From the IMG/VR virus record IMGVR_UViG_3300046009_006651, positions 1-20,633 of that record: 20,633 bases of DNA, one strand, 5' to 3'. The notes beneath the pieces were generated by a model. The model saw only the letters and a program-made list of their open reading frames with translations, was not told the origin of the DNA and made no database searches. Position numbers and translations under genes: made by a program. Positions 2,210 to 17,480 of this stretch are shown here, in pieces (within the stretch, counting starts at the first letter, position 1; the number at the start of each line of letters is the position of its first letter). The DNA comes from a virus.

Positions 2210-2556
2210 TGACCGCTGGCATTTACAACACAACCATTGACCAAGGCTCAGTGTGGTCGGTTGTGCTTGTGTACACCGACTCCAATGACGCGCCTGTCAA
2301 CTTGACTGGCTACACAGCTGCGATGCAGTTGCGACAGAATTACAACTCCGAGGTTGCCGATTTAACGCTGACTACAGCGAACGGCGGCATTTCGATTGTT
2401 GGTGCCACAGGCACAATCACAATCACAGCCACTGCAGTGCAGACTGGCTTGCTTGACCCAGGCTTTTACGTTTATGACCTCGAGCTCACATCAGGCTCAA
2501 ATATCTCTCGCCTAATCCAAGGCCAGTTGACCGTAGCAGAGCAGGTGACACGATAA
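2209..2556 (+). CDS. BppU-like fibre-base domain protein
   Basis: This 115-residue beta-rich protein reads like the small domain found at the N-terminus of phage baseplate upper proteins (BppU type) and in proteins that precede fibre genes. The recognisable pattern is an N-terminal strand with [13 protein letters not shown], then [13 protein letters not shown] (about residues 31-43), an Ile/Thr-rich strand pair (about 61-80), the FYVYDLEL strand (about 88-95) and a terminal [11 protein letters not shown]. It probably anchors or connects the fibre proteins encoded just downstream; that role is inference. The start is the ATG at 2209, one base into the preceding stop, with AAAAGG about 8 bases upstream. 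A TTG at 2206 is a less likely alternative. Its stop overlaps the collagen-like gene start (TAATG). Confidence 0.65.
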
Positions 2557-4079
2557 TGGCAGCCAATAAAGTCACCATCAACGAAACCAACAACACAGTT
2601 GAGATTTCAGCCCCAGGCCCACAAGGTGCACAAGGACCAACTGGTCCAACAGGTGCCACAGGCCCTGCAGGTGCAACTGGAGCCACAGGCCCAGTCGGTG
2701 CTACAGGTGCAACAGGCCCAACAGGCCCAACAGGTCCAGCTGGAGCAACAGGCCCAACAGGCCCACAGGGTGAGGCTTCAACCGTGCCTGGCCCAACAGG
2801 CGCCACAGGCCCTGCGGGTGCTACAGGCCCAACTGGTGCAACAGGCCCACAAGGAATCCAAGGCCCAACGGGTGCAACTGGTCCACAAGGTGCGGCTGGT
2901 GCGAATGGTGGCTCTACCAGCTTATTCGATTACAGTGCAGATACCACATCGACATCAGGTGACCCTGGCGCTGGCGACATACGCTGGAACAACAGCACGC
3001 AAATCAACGCGACAGCGTTGCTCATCGACCATTTAGACACCAATGGTAACGATATTGACGTGTTTGTCGCGCTGCTCAAAGCAGACGATTTCATTATCAT
3101 TCAAGACCGAGATGTTCACACCAACTTTCAGAAGTTCAAAGTCACAGCGGCTGCAACTGTTCTCGGTGGTTACAGCACCGTTCCAGTAGTCCTAGACTCA
3201 TCAGGCGGCACTGGCACCACCAACTTCACCAACTTTCAAGCCCTTGCTTTGTTGCTTATCAATGTCGGTCTTACAGGCGCAACTGGCCCAATCGGTCCAA
3301 CAGGTCCAACTGGCGCGACTGGCCCAACAGGCCCTGCAGGCGCAACTGGAGCCACAGGCCCTCAGGGTGATGCGGGTCCAACTGGAGCCACAGGCCCAGC
3401 TGGTGCGAATGGAGCAACAGGTGCAACTGGCCCACAGGGTGAGACTGGCGCTACTGGCCCAACAGGCCCAGTCGGTGCCACAGGCCCACAAGGTGCGACA
3501 GGTGCAACTGGCCCACAAGGCATTCAAGGAATCCAAGGCGTCCAAGGCATTCAGGGTGAAGTCGGTCCAACAGGTCCAACAGGCTCAGTCGGTGCAACAG
3601 GCCCAGCAGGAGCCACAGGTCCTGAAGGTGCCACAGGCGCAACTGGTCCACAAGGAATCCAAGGCGACGTTGGGGCTACTGGTCCGACGGGCCCAGCTGG
3701 AGCGACAGGCCCGCAAGGTGCAACAGGCGCAACTGGTCCGCAAGGAATCCAAGGCGACACAGGGGCTACAGGCCCAAGCGGCGCAACAGGTCCAAGCGGC
3801 CCAAGCGGCGCAACAGGTCCGCAGGGAATCCAAGGTGACACTGGCGCGACTGGCCCAACTGGGGCAACAGGTCCAGCAGGCGCTACAGGAGCAACTGGCC
3901 CAAGCGGTTCTACTGGTCCAACAGGTCCAACGGGTCCGCAGGGTGGGGACAACCCAGTCGTCGATTACATCGACGGTGGCAACGTTGTAAATCCTGACGT
4001 CATTTACAACGCAGAGACCTCAGGCACCACATCTTGGACCTACACGATTGACGCTGGCGGGGCGACAGTAACCTTCTAA
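2556..4079 (+). CDS. Collagen-like phage fibre protein
   Basis: This 507-residue protein is mostly Gly-X-Y triplets, so it should form a collagen-type triple helix and therefore a trimeric fibre. A short beta-like head (1-20) is followed by a first collagen tract (residues 21-118), a non-repetitive globular domain (about 119-238), a second longer collagen tract (241-463) and a 43-residue C-terminal cap. The triplets are dominated by GPTG, GATG and GPAG, with GIQG runs at about 322-334. The globular insert, beginning SLFDYSADT, resembles domains seen between collagen tracts in other phage tail proteins. The likely role is host attachment or virion decoration. The start ATG shares a base with the preceding stop. 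Prokaryotic collagens lack hydroxyproline, so stability would come from Thr, Pro and charge; no enzyme for it is seen here. Confidence 0.85.
2616..2909 (+). repeat. Collagen-coding triplet repeat tract 1
   Basis: About 98 codons of uninterrupted Gly-X-Y, with GGN in every third codon. Near-identical units such as GGCCCAACAGG recur many times. The repetition makes the tract prone to length changes by recombination or slippage. Confidence 0.9.
3276..3944 (+). repeat. Collagen-coding triplet repeat tract 2
   Basis: About 223 codons of Gly-X-Y. The segment coding GPQGIQGD recurs at about 3648-3665, 3735-3758 and 3819-3842, and is accompanied by similar flanking units, which suggests past duplication of blocks of roughly 85 bases inside the tract. 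Confidence 0.88.
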
Positions 4080-4098: not shown

Positions 4099-4887
4099 AT
4101 GACAGCAAGAATGCAGCAACGCCGAGACACGGCAGCAAACTGGACAAGCACAAATCCAACACTTGCATCTGGTGAAATCGGGATTGAAACAGACACCTAC
4201 AAAATGAAGGTTGGTACTGGCTCGACTGCATGGACATCGCTGCCATATTCAGTTGACATTCCAACTCAAACTGGCCAATCTGGCAAGTACCTAACAACAG
4301 ATGGCACGTCAACTAGCTGGGGCACTGTTGCTGGCGACATCGAGGGTGTTACAGCTGGCACTGGCCTAACAGGCGGCGGCACTAGCGGCACAGTCACACT
4401 TTCAATTGATTCAACTGTCACAACGCTGACTGGCTCACAAACCCTTACCAATAAAACATTAACGTCGCCAGTTGTCACGGGTGGCACACTTGCTGATATA
4501 GTAATCAAAGGGCTCGAGGAAGATGTTAATGTCGTAGCGTCTGCTGCTACTGGCACAATCAATTTTGATGTCTCTACAGCTTCAGTGTGGTATTACACTT
4601 CAAATGCAACAGCAAACCACACACTCAATTTCCGCTATAGCAGCGGAGCGTCACTGAACTCAGTAATGGCAACGGGCGACGCGATTACACTCGTTTGGCT
4701 AAACACCAACGGTGCAACCGCTTATTATCCAAACGTCATTCAAATCGATGGCAGCACAGTCACCCCAAAGGTGCCTAGCGCAATTTCATCAGGCAACGCA
4801 TCGGCAATCGATGCATACACTTTTACAATCATCAAAACAGCATCTGCCACTTACACAGTGCTAGAGACACAAACCAAATTCGCCTAA
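4099..4887 (+). CDS. Tail fibre protein, Mtd-like N-terminus
   Basis: This 262-residue protein is a probable fibre or receptor-binding protein. Residues 5-50 (MQQRRDTAANW, then GEIGIETDTYKMKVGTG and AWTSLPY) match the N-terminal domain pattern of major tropism determinant type and hyaluronidase-like phage fibre proteins. Residues 83-105 are a Gly/Thr-rich segment of the GVTAGTGLTGGG type, followed by LTNKTLTSPVVTGG (117-129), a pattern frequent in phage tail fibres. The C-terminal 120 residues look like beta strands rich in Thr, Ser and Val. The start is the ATG at 4099 with AGGAGA (4092-4097) directly upstream; an ATG at 4111 is possible. No reverse transcriptase or template repeat is seen nearby, so there is no sign that tropism is diversified as in Mtd phages. 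Confidence 0.75.
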   Translation: MTARMQQRRDTAANWTSTNPTLASGEIGIETDTYKMKVGTGSTAWTSLPYSVDIPTQTGQSGKYLTTDGTSTSWGTVAGDIEGVTAGTGLTGGGTSGTVTLSIDSTVTTLTGSQTLTNKTLTSPVVTGGTLADIVIKGLEEDVNVVASAATGTINFDVSTASVWYYTSNATANHTLNFRYSSGASLNSVMATGDAITLVWLNTNGATAYYPNVIQIDGSTVTPKVPSAISSGNASAIDAYTFTIIKTASATYTVLETQTKFA

Positions 4888-12190: not shown

Positions 12191-12232
12191 GTGCAAGGCA
12201 AGTGGGACTCCCCCGACTCATTTGCCTTGCAC
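12191..12232 (+). terminator. Strong hairpin after the capsid gene
   Basis: GTGCAAGGCAA (12191-12201) and TTGCCTTGCAC (12222-12232) form a perfect 11-bp stem. Five further pairs, two of them G-U, extend it to 12206/12217 and leave a 10-base loop. It starts 26 bases past the capsid stop. There is no run of T after it; CTCTTAGGGGG follows, so it is not a textbook intrinsic terminator. It may attenuate read-through or protect the 3' end of capsid mRNA. Confidence 0.7.
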
Positions 12233-12248: not shown

Positions 12249-12944
12249 ATGAAAGCAAGTCATAAAGTATCTATCGGGGTCTGTGACCCTGGCATGGTGA
12301 ACGGCGATTTCGCTTTTCGCATGATTCAGTTAGCACAATCTCGCAGCTCACGGCTTGGGCCGTTTGTACGCACCAAAGGTTCGGGCTTGCTTAGCAAGTT
12401 ACGCAACCGAGTGGTTAAGTCTTTCCTTGACGACACCAACTCCGATTGGCTTTTGCTAATTGACGCCGATGAGCAACTGTCGCCACAAGCATTTGACCAG
12501 CTCATCAACGTAGCGCATGACAAAGACCGCCCAGTTGTAGCGGGTCTTTATTTTGGAGCTTGGGACGCCAATAAAAACCTTTACCCAGTGCCCGTGCCAC
12601 TCATATTCAGGGACACTCCAAAGGGCTTCACGCCCATAAACGATTACCAACGCAACTCGATTTTTGAAATCGATGCTTGCGGTACTGGTTGCATGCTTAT
12701 TCATCGCAGCGTGCTTGAAAAGATGCGCGAAGCCGCAGACCCAAACCAAGGCACTGACTGGTGCTGGTTTTGGGACGGCCCCATCAATGGCGAGTGGATA
12801 AGTGAAGACTTGCTGTTTTGTCGCAGGATTAGGCAGTTAGGTTTTCCGATTTACGCAAACACCGCGGCCATCTTGCCGCACCAAAAGACTTACTGGCTTG
12901 ACGAGAGGCACCACATTGATAGGCAGCTCAACCAAGACAGCTAG
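12249..12944 (+). CDS. Glycosyltransferase, GT-A fold (GT2-like)
   Basis: This 231-residue protein has the features of a GT-A glycosyltransferase. They are a nucleotide-binding segment with the DxD-type motif SDWLLLIDADEQL (D72 and D74), a central acceptor region GTGCMLIHRSVLEKM (about 145-159), and WISEDLLFCRRIRQLGFPIYANT (about 182-204), where the Glu-Asp pair is the usual catalytic or binding site. The protein is short, with no extra domain and no membrane segment. The start ATG at 12249 has AGGGGGAG (12238-12245). It lies between the capsid gene and the head-tail adaptor, directly after the hairpin, as an insertion in an otherwise standard head-to-neck order. It is unrelated in fold to the GT-B enzyme at 7233, so the phage may build a two-step glycan on the virion or on the host. 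The target is unknown. Confidence 0.82.
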   Translation: MKASHKVSIGVCDPGMVNGDFAFRMIQLAQSRSSRLGPFVRTKGSGLLSKLRNRVVKSFLDDTNSDWLLLIDADEQLSPQAFDQLINVAHDKDRPVVAGLYFGAWDANKNLYPVPVPLIFRDTPKGFTPINDYQRNSIFEIDACGTGCMLIHRSVLEKMREAADPNQGTDWCWFWDGPINGEWISEDLLFCRRIRQLGFPIYANTAAILPHQKTYWLDERHHIDRQLNQDS

Positions 12945-13974: not shown

Positions 13975-14148
13975 ATGAACTACACAATCGCCTCGGACAC
14001 ACTCGAGGTCGGCACCAAGAAAAAAGGCGACCAAGTCGCTACCAAAGAATTGCTCGAAGCTGGATGCAACATCGCTGCGCTTGTTAGTGGTGGGCATCTT
14101 TCTAGCAATAGCCCAACTAAGCCACAAGCAGAAGGAGCCGCAGAATAA
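13975..14148 (+). CDS. Small conserved tail-region protein
   Basis: This 57-residue protein begins at the ATG at 13975 with AAGGAG (13962-13967), two bases after the tail-terminator stop. The sequence MNYTIASDTLEVGTKKKGDQVATKELLEAGCN (residues 1-32) looks like a short SH3-like or KOW-like beta unit followed by a helix; the C-terminus (SNSPTKPQAEGAAE) is low complexity and probably disordered. Similar tiny proteins occur between terminator and tail-tube genes in actinobacterial phages, with no assigned role. The stop shares a base with the tail-tube start (TAATG). Longer in-frame starts upstream lie inside the terminator gene and lack a binding site. Confidence 0.66.
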   Translation: MNYTIASDTLEVGTKKKGDQVATKELLEAGCNIAALVSGGHLSSNSPTKPQAEGAAE

Positions 14149-14555
14149 TGGCCCGATTAGTCCTAACAAACGCGTATATCACAATCAACTCAGTCAATCT
14201 GAGTGACCACATCGCTAGCGTCACACTAACCACGAATGACGACGTAGTTGAGACAACTGCTTTCGGCTCAACAGCTCGCACTCGTATTGGCGGCCTTGGC
14301 GACAACTCAGTAGCACTCGAGTTCCACCAAGACTACGCAACAAGCAACGTGGAAGCAACGATTTACCCACTACTTGGCAGCGCAACCAACGTGGTCGTCA
14401 AACCAAACGGTTCAACTACAGGAGCAGAAAACCCATCATACAGCTTCAGCGCATTGGTTTCCGAATGGACTCCTTTGAATGGCGCTGTCGGCGAACTCGC
14501 AACTGCAAGCGTGACTTGGCCAATCAGCGGTGAAGTAACAAAGGCGGTTTCATAA
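14148..14555 (+). CDS. Tail tube protein (copy 1)
   Basis: This 135-residue beta-rich protein is a likely tail-tube subunit. The pattern VNLSDHIASVTLTTNDDVVETTAFG (about residues 16-40), GDNSVALEFHQDYA and a conserved WTPLNGAVGELATASVTWPISG end (about 106-127) matches the small tail-tube family of actinobacterial siphophages. Hexamers of such proteins stack around the tape measure. It is followed, with a one-base overlap, by a clearly related second copy. Whether this copy or the next is the main tube protein is not shown by sequence; this one has a 4-residue-longer loop (NGSTTGAENP) near residue 87-96. Confidence 0.83.
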   Translation: MARLVLTNAYITINSVNLSDHIASVTLTTNDDVVETTAFGSTARTRIGGLGDNSVALEFHQDYATSNVEATIYPLLGSATNVVVKPNGSTTGAENPSYSFSALVSEWTPLNGAVGELATASVTWPISGEVTKAVS

Positions 14556-14944
14556 TGGCACGCATTGTTCTAACCAACGTTGCCGTCACTTTCGGCACAA
14601 CAGACATTTCAAGCTACGTCACTTCGGTGACACTTGGCTCGACTTTTGACGTAGTTGAGACAACTGCTTTCGGCAATACAGCCCGCACAAGAGTGGCTGG
14701 GCTTGCGGACAACAGCGTCTCGCTGGAGTTCAATCAAGACTACGCCACAAGCGCTTTAGAAGCAACAATCTACCCAACACTCGGCACGGCGGTTTCAATG
14801 ACCGTTCGCCCAGTTGCGGCTACCTCGCCTGCATACTCATTCAGCGCGTTGGTTTCCGAATGGACTCCGCTCAACGGAGCCGTCGGCGAACTCGCAACCG
14901 CCTCGGTCACCTGGCCGATCAGCGGCGTAATAACCAAGTCATAA
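14555..14944 (+). CDS. Tail tube protein (copy 2, paralogue)
   Basis: This 129-residue protein is a close relative of the preceding one. By eye the two share about two thirds of aligned residues, with identical DVVETTAFG, QDYATS, EATIYP and a 31-residue identical block near the C-terminus (YSFSALVSEW through TWPISG). It lacks four residues of the loop near residue 87. It may form part of the same tube, a specialised ring at one end, or a domain-like variant exposed on the surface. The start overlaps the previous stop (TAATG). Tandem tail-tube genes are less common than a single gene; the divergence at silent sites shows this is not a very recent copy. Confidence 0.83.
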   Translation: MARIVLTNVAVTFGTTDISSYVTSVTLGSTFDVVETTAFGNTARTRVAGLADNSVSLEFNQDYATSALEATIYPTLGTAVSMTVRPVAATSPAYSFSALVSEWTPLNGAVGELATASVTWPISGVITKS

Positions 14945-14947
14945 CCT

Positions 14948-14967
14948 AACAAGGGGGAACAAATGGA
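14948..14967 (+). repeat. Repeated start-site sequence (copy 1)
   Basis: Twenty bases ending in the start of the tail chaperone gene, with core AAGGGGGAACAAATGGA, are identical to 20414-20433. The identity spans the binding site, the spacer and the start codon. Confidence 0.85.
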
Positions 14968-15241
14968 CGGTCTATCAATCAAGGTCAAAACCACAGAAGG
15001 CGTCGAGGCGTCGTACAAACTGACTCCTCGAGTCATCGTGGCATTCGAGCAACAATACGGCAAGGGAATGCCTAAACTGCTTGGTGAGGAACAAAAGATC
15101 GAGCACGTTTTTTGGCTAGCTTGGAAATCAATGCAACTCAGCGGCGTTGTAGTAAAGCCGTGGGGACCCGAGTTCCTAGACACCATCATATCGGCCGAAC
15201 TGGACTCTGACGCGTCTTTCGAATCCACCGAGATAGCCTAA
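14963..15241 (+). CDS. Tail assembly chaperone, short form (gpG-like)
   Basis: This 92-residue protein is the zero-frame product of the tail chaperone locus just before the tape measure region. It reads MDGLSIKVKTTEGVEASYKLTPRVIVAFEQQYGKG, then HVFWLAWKSM (about 48-57), VVVKPWGPEFLDTI. The mix of a beta N-terminus and the Trp-rich helical centre is typical of the G-type chaperones that hold the tape measure while the tube assembles. The start ATG has AAGGGGG (14951-14957). The last codons lie inside the 5' arm of a stem-loop. The protein probably also occurs as a longer form made by a -1 frameshift. Confidence 0.8.
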   Translation: MDGLSIKVKTTEGVEASYKLTPRVIVAFEQQYGKGMPKLLGEEQKIEHVFWLAWKSMQLSGVVVKPWGPEFLDTIISAELDSDASFESTEIA

Positions 15242-15366
15242 CGTATACAATCGCCGCTATCTCGGTGGAGACTGGCATATCTCCGACCGCGTTGCTAGAT
15301 GCTCCCGAGGGAGTGCTTGAAGCAATAACGGCCTACATCAAAGAACGGGCGAAAAAGCATGGCTGA
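14963..15366 (+). CDS. Tail assembly chaperone, -1 frameshift form (gpGT-like)
   Basis: The -1 frame relative to the short form is open from 15211 to the TGA at 15364-15366 and has no good start of its own. It encodes, in order, LTYTIAAISVETGISP, TALLDAPEGVLEA and ITAYIKERAKKHG, which is the helical C-terminal extension pattern of gpGT-type chaperones. A -1 slip can only occur between 15211 and 15241. The best place is the codon pair TCT TTC (15215-15220), where a slip re-reads TTC as TTT. That would give 86 zero-frame residues plus about 48, or about 134 in all. The slip site is not a canonical X XXY YYZ heptamer, so the exact position is uncertain. The stop of this form overlaps the next start by 8 bases. 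Confidence 0.68.
15224..15269 (+). promoter_or_regulatory. Stem-loop at the tail chaperone frameshift
   Basis: TCCACCGAGATAGC (15224-15237) and GCTATCTCGGTGGA (15256-15269) pair perfectly over 14 bp around an 18-base loop. The loop contains the zero-frame stop TAA (15239-15241). It begins 3 bases after the candidate slip codon TTC. A stable fold just downstream of a slip site is what stimulates -1 frameshifting in other phages and viruses. Confidence 0.75.
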
Positions 15367-15914: not shown

Positions 15915-17480
15915 ATGGCAATCGGCGCAGTAGTCGCTCGCATACTCACCCAGTATTCTGACAAAGGCACAAAAGCCGCTGTCAAAGACATCTCCAAAAT
16001 GGAGAAGAAGTTTACCAAGTTCGCAGACAAAACAGCCAAAGCATTTGGGTTGGCGGCTCTCGCGGCTGGCGCTTTTGCAATCAAGATCGGAAAAGACGCC
16101 GTTCAAGGCGCGATGGAAGACCAAAAACAGCAAGTCGCTTTGGCACAGGCTTTGCGCAACACAACAGGCGCCACAGATGAAGCAATTGCTGCCACTACCG
16201 CGTACCTAGACAAGCTCGAGTTAATGGTCGGCGTTGACAACCGCGAACTGATTCCATCTTTACAAGTATTAACGCAGGCGACAAAAGACGTCGCACAGGC
16301 TCAAACACTGCAAGGCCTAGCCCTTGACATCTCGGCTGCATCTGGCAAAGATTTGCAAGCTGTTTCAATCGCGCTTGCCAAGGCAGTCGGTGGCAACGTT
16401 ACCGCTTTGACTAGGCTCGGTGTGCCTTTAGATGCCGATGCAGTAAAAGCAAAAGACTTGAACGCCATTTTGACCTCACTGGGTGAGACTTTTAGCGGGC
16501 AGGCCAACAAGCGAGCACAAACGTTCGAGTTTCAATTAGGTAGACTCAGGCTGGCCTTCAACCAGATTCTCGACCAGATCGGCTATGCTTTAATCCCATT
16601 TTTAGAAAAACTAGCCAACACAGTGCGAGACAAGGTCTTGCCAGCGTTGTCTGTATGGATTGAGCAAAACGGAGCCAAACTGGCGGCTGCATTTCAGACT
16701 GGCATTTCGTATGGTGTAGCCTTTTTCAAGCTCATAATCGATTTATTCTCATTCGTGGCACGCAACGCAAAAGTGTTTGCCACTATTGGCGCCATAATTG
16801 TGGCCGCCTTTTTCGGCGCAAAGACTGCAGCCGCAGTTGCGGGCTTAGTCAAGGGCATTCAAGCCATTATCACAGTAATGAAAGCCCTTCGGACGGTCTC
16901 ACTTGCATCAGCCGCGGCAACTGCATTGGCAACGGGTGGAGTCTCTGCAGCAGCAGGCGCCGCTGCTTTCGGTGTCGCTTTGGTTGGCATAGGAATAGCC
17001 GCCAAAAAGTTCAATTCAGACTCCGACAAAGCAACCGACGCGCTCGGCAAGTTCGGCGTCGATCTTAAAGGACTAACCGTTAGCGCTGACGATTACACCA
17101 AAGGACTGGGCGGCATCACTTCAGCCACAAACGGTGTCACTGCAGCGACTAAAGGTGCGGCGCAAGCGTCTGCGCTTTTGCTCAAGTTACAAAACAAGTT
17201 CGGACTCAAGGGCTTAAAAGAAACCGACCCAGTCACATTAGAAGCGATTCGCAAAAACCAGCTCAAGCAACGAGCGCTGGGCCTCTCTAGTCCGACTATC
17301 TCGCTACTTGCGTCAGCTGGACACGGCAATATTGCAAAGAACACCACCATGAACGGGGGCAACATCACGGTGAACGTAGCAGGTTCTGTGGTCTCACAAG
17401 GAGATCTCATTAACGGCATCAAGAACGGTCTTGCGACTCTAATGCGCCGTCGTGCGGGCAGTCAGTTTGCGGTGCTTTAA
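15915..17480 (+). CDS. Tape measure protein
   Basis: This 521-residue protein sets tail length and is extruded before DNA ejection. The N-terminal part (about 1-60) is MAIGAVVARILTQYSDKGTKAA followed by a basic helix and AFGLAALAAGAFAIKIG. The stretch of about 90-190 carries typical family segments such as LQVLTQATKDVAQ and KAVGGNVTALTRLGVP. Hydrophobic segments at about 286-325 and 336-364 could cross the host membrane. The C-terminus (NITVNVAGSVVSQGDLINGI, then LMRRRAG) is characteristic. It is short for a tape measure. It begins at the ATG at 15915, one base after the preceding stop, with no strong binding site, so coupling to the gene before is likely. The stop overlaps the next start (TAATG). 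Confidence 0.93.
   Translation: MAIGAVVARILTQYSDKGTKAAVKDISKMEKKFTKFADKTAKAFGLAALAAGAFAIKIGKDAVQGAMEDQKQQVALAQALRNTTGATDEAIAATTAYLDKLELMVGVDNRELIPSLQVLTQATKDVAQAQTLQGLALDISAASGKDLQAVSIALAKAVGGNVTALTRLGVPLDADAVKAKDLNAILTSLGETFSGQANKRAQTFEFQLGRLRLAFNQILDQIGYALIPFLEKLANTVRDKVLPALSVWIEQNGAKLAAAFQTGISYGVAFFKLIIDLFSFVARNAKVFATIGAIIVAAFFGAKTAAAVAGLVKGIQAIITVMKALRTVSLASAAATALATGGVSAAAGAAAFGVALVGIGIAAKKFNSDSDKATDALGKFGVDLKGLTVSADDYTKGLGGITSATNGVTAATKGAAQASALLLKLQNKFGLKGLKETDPVTLEAIRKNQLKQRALGLSSPTISLLASAGHGNIAKNTTMNGGNITVNVAGSVVSQGDLINGIKNGLATLMRRRAGSQFAVL

Follow-up and report, generated by a model that had tools for sequence, protein, structure and literature searches.

The stretch of DNA analyzed here, referred to as the window, spans 20,633 nucleotides of an uncultivated virus (IMG/VR record IMGVR_UViG_3300046009_006651) and carries a siphovirus head-tail module: portal, capsid, head-tail connector, tail terminator, two tandem major tail proteins, a small overlapped gene, a 184-aa ORF and a long ORF at the position of a tape measure (521 aa, 15915-17480). 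The two major tail proteins directly upstream of the small gene are similar and both belong to PHROG 4574 (14148-14555 and 14555-14944), where Pontimonas phage phiPsal1 has one; they are possibly two tube proteins or a decorated tube subunit. A long collagen-like Gly-X-Y repeat protein is also encoded among the structural genes (2556-4079). The small gene and its surroundings comprise the following features:

14963..15241, + strand: zero-frame ORF of 92 aa, between the tandem major tail proteins and the tape measure; stop TAA at 15239-15241.
15208..15210, + strand: TGA of the -1 frame, the upstream bound on a possible shift site.
15211..15366, + strand: -1 frame extension, 51 codons plus TGA; conserved part from 15238 (LTYT...).
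15217..15220, + strand: slip tetramer U_UUC (third base of TCT plus TTC).
15224..15237, + strand: 5' arm of the 14-bp stem, TCCACCGAGATAGC.
15227-15233 with 15260-15266, + strand: stem core of 7 bp, formed in 79 of 79 same-register relatives.
15238..15255, + strand: loop of 18 nt, holding the zero-frame TAA and read only in the -1 frame after that stop.
15256..15269, + strand: 3' arm of the stem, GCTATCTCGGTGGA; a Ser codon within it is TCG in 68 of 68 sequences.

As the original prediction had it, the chaperone frame ends at 15241 and the -1 frame is open from 15211 to 15366. The -1 frame is bounded by TGA 15208-15210 upstream and TGA 15364-15366 downstream; its translation is RVFRIHRDSLTYTIAAISVETGISPTALLDAPEGVLEAITAYIKERAKKHG. 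The two arms of the stem are fully complementary and the zero-frame stop does lie in the loop. The -1 frame lacks ATG, and no GTG occurs in it before the one at 15265.

Querying IMG/VR with the gene returned at least hundreds of relatives, all from uncultivated viruses, which form well-separated clades in a tree. Of these, 178 distinct loci were read, each holding both the zero-frame part and the tail domain; they include near-identical contigs from different samples and do not amount to 178 independent observations. Locus L260 was left out owing to an odd 19-codon frame that stems from a partial chaperone match. The zero frame has 92 codons in 168 of the 178 loci and 97 codons in six. The 97-aa form carries a 5-codon insert in the zero-frame protein (loci L206, L208, L223 and L228), and these loci are part of the group with the shifted-register stem described below. 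For neither the gene nor the portal were relatives found in cellular genome contigs, and no close relative of the gene was found in GenBank phages. Which bacteria do these phages infect? Nearly all terminase matches among cultured phages are to phages of actinobacteria, the major tail protein is 50% identical to its counterpart in phiPsal1, and 8 of 12 long related contigs encode a homologue of WhiB, an actinobacterial protein. Together, these matches point to a host that is most likely an aquatic actinobacterium.

The tail that looked conserved from the window alone is so across the family. All 178 loci have the domain in the -1 frame, and its pN/pS downstream of the stem is 0.19 (146 sequences), compared with 0.166 for the zero-frame protein in the same set. 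Sequencing error and chance were rejected as sources of this layout, which recurs in every locus read (at least 175 besides the window). The -1 frame opens just 1 nt upstream of the slip codons in 86 of the 178 loci and 4 nt upstream in 47, and in most relatives a -1 stop stands directly upstream of the slip codons.

How do ribosomes reach the -1 frame? The extension could be a separate small gene, read from a start of its own (GTG 15265, for example) or by ribosomes that re-initiate past the loop's TAA, with the stem tuning that start. GTG 15265 lies within the 3' arm, and the zero-frame stop ends 24 nt upstream of it. However, the loop codons (15238-15255) lie ahead of every ATG, GTG or TTG that the window has in the -1 frame, and they have a -1 frame pN/pS of 0.107 (146 sequences). 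Moreover, the GTG is not conserved (GTT in 40, TGC in 12 and GTA in one of 146 sequences), it lies inside the stem with no Shine-Dalgarno-like sequence seen before it, and an early -1 frame ATG occurs in just 5 of 178 loci. Selection ahead of any start, together with replacement of the GTG in other clades, rules out that the frame is generally entered through its own start or through re-initiation, and we give the separate gene hardly any credence. Since the loop codons are under selection past the zero-frame stop and before any start, ribosomes would already be in the -1 frame there, and this purifying selection indicates that entry must be by frameshift.

The window reads G_UCU_UUC at the presumed shift site, which is not a slippery heptamer of the form X_XXY_YYZ. 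The codon before TTC ends in T in 167 of 167 sequences, placing a shifty tetramer in frame. This holds for both amino acids found there: Ser is TCT in 126 of 126 cases, against 20% (109/543) elsewhere in the gene, and Asn is AAT in 41 of 41. The C of TTTC is also invariant; it is held by the -1 frame as well, which would otherwise read TGA after GAA, and is therefore not independent evidence. The base ahead of the TCT or AAT codon varies freely among G, T, A and C. Some relatives carry heptamers, either A_AAU_UUC or C_CCA_AAU; the latter is a proper heptamer one codon upstream, with a 6-nt spacer to the same stem. TTC is changed to TCC in eight sequences, all of them among the 18 with C_CCA_AAU and none among the other 69. 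The contrast is strong, though it takes no account of descent. AAATTTC and AAATTCC switch about seven times on the tree inside the AAAT group, to which TTCC is confined.

U_UUC is an established Z_ZZN tetramer that shifts well in E. coli only with a strong downstream structure (PMC4066793). In a tetramer set that spanned 0.26 to 5.6% with the IS3 pseudoknot, it was second only to A_AAG (PMC4066793). This range takes in the few per cent that lambda needs, where a small share of frameshift product, 30:1, suffices (PMC5009743). The expectation that the site would not be a standard heptamer was correct, and a slip on the single codon TTC fits the data. The suggested departure from the lambda G/GT case nonetheless stays within known rules, since U_UUC is a known shifty tetramer.

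Do one or two tRNAs slip? Tandem slippage of the P- and A-site tRNAs on N_UCU_UUC would find some room in the pairing of Ser-tRNA GGA with UUC via a middle G-U; U precedes TCT in 88 of 134 NTCTTTC loci, which allows near-cognate re-pairing, and the A_AAU_UUC relatives are true heptamers. The window itself, however, has G ahead of UCU, as G, A or C is found in 46 of the 134 loci, and Ser-tRNA on GUC, AUC or CUC fails at the first base. We consider tandem slippage unlikely, though it keeps an appreciable chance. The fusion would have the same amino acid sequence by either route. Under the single-codon slip that we favor, the varying preceding base means that the P-site codon re-pairs poorly in many members, and a low shift frequency is expected.

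The stem is the second element of the putative signal. It is perfect over its full length, and a 90-nt region containing it folds at -32.2 kcal/mol, compared with a mean of -21.7 for shuffled sequences (z = -3.1; none of 200 shuffles was as stable). Nowhere else in the 20.6-kb window is there a perfect stem of 14 bp or more with a loop of 3-30 nt, and 300 first-order Markov sequences of the window's length contained none. Another strong 14-bp hairpin, 93% complementary and with a 14-nt loop and no T run, sits at 12191-12232 in the space that separates the capsid gene from the ORF at 12249-12944; it is possibly a processing or attenuation site.

Among 88 distinct slip-stem regions, 79 share one register and form 12-14 of its 14 pairs. 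In these 79, 90.1% of cells are paired; sliding the 3' arm by 1-3 nt lowers this to 31-52%. Changes on both sides are seen in four pairs, giving 82 doubly changed cells and a covariation score reached by none of 500 shuffles. Two pairs of the core vary. One, 15231/15262, occurs as C-G, A-U or U-G, changes four times on the tree and always stays paired. The other, 15232/15261, occurs as G-C, A-U or G-U and fails only in the shifted-register group, where it is A-G; its states change 10 times on a tree built without the stem, that group counted in. Relatives often lack pairing closer to the loop (15234/15259 and 15235/15258), and the third pair from the bottom, 15226/15267, is lost in one clade (27 of 79). 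The nine sequences without the standard register form another stem, CCACCGCA/TGCGGTGG, at the same place. Furthermore, the TCG that encodes Ser in all 68 sequences lies in the 3' arm, which is coding in the -1 frame only, and the adjoining codons use several synonyms. Judged from this pattern of substitution, the stem is a selected structure.

The stem had been placed 3 bases after TCT TTC. As a coordinate this holds, the full stem beginning 3 nt after TTC 15218-15220. As a spacer it is only nominal, since the core of 7 pairs formed in 79 of 79 sequences starts 6 nt after TTC, a normal distance; a stable, conserved and covarying hairpin is thus found at the 4-10 nt or so that separate such structures from the slip motif. 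Candidate additional stimulators were rejected. Complements between the loop and downstream sequence, which might have formed a pseudoknot, are mostly 4-7 nt long and at shifting positions, and a Shine-Dalgarno-like stimulator is present in just 1 of 87 sequences.

Could the stem serve another purpose, such as transcription end, RNA cleavage or a DNA-level element, with any frameshift occurring on the tetramer alone? Covariation by itself cannot separate an RNA role from one in single-stranded DNA. A terminator was rejected, there being no T run after the stem and no terminator-like site nearby on the + strand, and the stem region has no match in Rfam. Across all groups, the nine shifted-register sequences included, the distance from slip codon to stem start stays at 3-5 nt, and tetramers alone barely shift in E. 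coli (PMC4066793). We regard another role for the stem as very improbable.

A -1 frameshift on TTC stimulated by the hairpin remains our preferred reading, the one that agrees with every line of the comparative data. The constant frame relation, the selection on the -1 frame, the covariation of the stem and the frozen synonymous bases of the slip site are shown by the comparison, and the alignment of related phages, in which a joint lack of stem and -1 frame would have counted against the proposal, retains both. The likely programmed frameshift of the original prediction is borne out in this way: in our judgment the locus very probably carries a programmed -1 ribosomal frameshift signal in a gene that is, by position, a tail assembly chaperone gene of an uncultivated actinobacterial phage.

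That a shift takes place, how frequent it is, at which codon it occurs and what the fusion does are inferred from these observations. Most ribosomes would end at TAA 15239 and yield the 92-aa chaperone. A ribosome at TCT TTC would be held by the stem with its bottom three pairs opened, the core standing 6 nt past the A-site codon and 12 nt past the first P-site base. Counted from the first P-site base, a ribosome covers about 11-12 nt (PMC7282821). When TCT occupies the P site, this coverage would open the three bottom pairs and bring the ribosome against the core, although the geometry comes from E. coli work and may not hold for the tRNAs and ribosomes of the host. The loss of pair 15226/15267 in one clade would fit a pair that is opened anyway. 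In a minority of ribosomes, Phe-tRNA would re-pair from UUC to UUU, shift by -1 and read CGA ATC CAC and onward to 15366. The predicted product is a fusion with a helical tail domain of about 40 residues, whose junction peptide would be SFR...SLTYTIAAISVETG. If the two products act as G and GT do in lambda, the tape measure protein would carry a coat of the short form, and the rare fusion would serve to bring in the tail tube protein.

What is the zero-frame protein? Profile searches at E up to 0.1 assign it to no family in Pfam or PHROGs, those of named tail chaperones included, and for this reason we do not file it as a lambda G homologue. The AlphaFold model has a mean pLDDT of 86. A fold search of the PDB with this model gave no match; viral matches in Foldseek include unnamed uncultured Caudovirales proteins and A0A2K9VGQ1, which we take, from its length of 83 and 21% identity, to be the phiPsal1 counterpart. 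By architecture, with a gene between the major tail protein and the tape measure and an overlapping -1 frame with a conserved extension, the locus is of the G/GT type. Gene order and this architecture, rather than a family match, suggest that the zero-frame product is a tail assembly chaperone.

Two remote relatives have the same gene order as the window and a homologous -1 domain. Gene 016 of phiPsal1 (MG835450), annotated as a hypothetical protein, is 28% identical to the zero frame over 61 aa, and an annotated tape measure lies at the corresponding place. After A_AAA_AAA follows an unannotated -1 extension (L316:4673-4840), WTIAMLACETHISPRELMELDPRMLWTMQRYL, 33% identical to that of the window; the deposited annotation is blank over most of 4673-4840. 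EBPR siphovirus 6 (JF412301) likewise has an unannotated -1 extension of gp13 (L319:1687-1848) with IASLAVDTGIAPSLLM..., 30% identical to that of the window, and the heptamer C_CCU_UUG in the overlap. Both heptamers are canonical, and the stem of the window's family is absent after them. The same pair of domains thus appears to be joined by ordinary -1 signals in remote relatives, whereas the window's family would use a tetramer and a strong hairpin.

Frameshifting in a tail assembly chaperone gene of the lambda G/GT type was reportedly described by Xu, Hendrix and Duda in 2004. The window shares with lambda a small gene after the tail tube and before the tape measure, in which a -1 shift near the 3' end would add a second domain; it differs in having no detectable homology to named chaperone families and a tetramer with a covarying hairpin in place of a heptamer. 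The Z_ZZN signals of IS3 and IS1 family elements are alike in the re-pairing of a single A-site tRNA on U_UUC and the need for a downstream structure (PMC4066793), and heptamers are used within those same families too (PMC4066793). Unlike the elements with a stem or pseudoknot, the window has its signal in a phage structural gene with a simple hairpin and no pseudoknot found, and its family is almost without the Shine-Dalgarno-like stimulator. We read the signal as very probably a real and well-conserved one of the G/GT type with an unusual tetramer-plus-hairpin design, a new variation on a well-known phage trick.

What makes the locus interesting is this design, together with the swapping of slip motifs about a retained stem. 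As a tentative reading, which we hold quite possible though short of probable, the hairpin may be the lasting part of the signal, with the slip site exchanged among U_UUC, A_AAU_UUC and C_CCA_AAU, each standing at a workable distance from the kept stem, and one lineage acquiring a new stem register.

Frameshift finders based on heptamers miss such genes; this family is nameless in Pfam and PHROGs, and its extension is unannotated even in the cultured phiPsal1. With their covarying stem and range of slip motifs, the hundreds of sequences form a natural mutational series for bacterial -1 frameshifting, in which the trade-off among slip motif, spacer and stem strength can be asked. The sequences point to a two-product tail chaperone in widespread aquatic, probably actinobacterial, phages. 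If true, the exchange of slip motifs around a kept hairpin would be a natural record of signal turnover with output retained.
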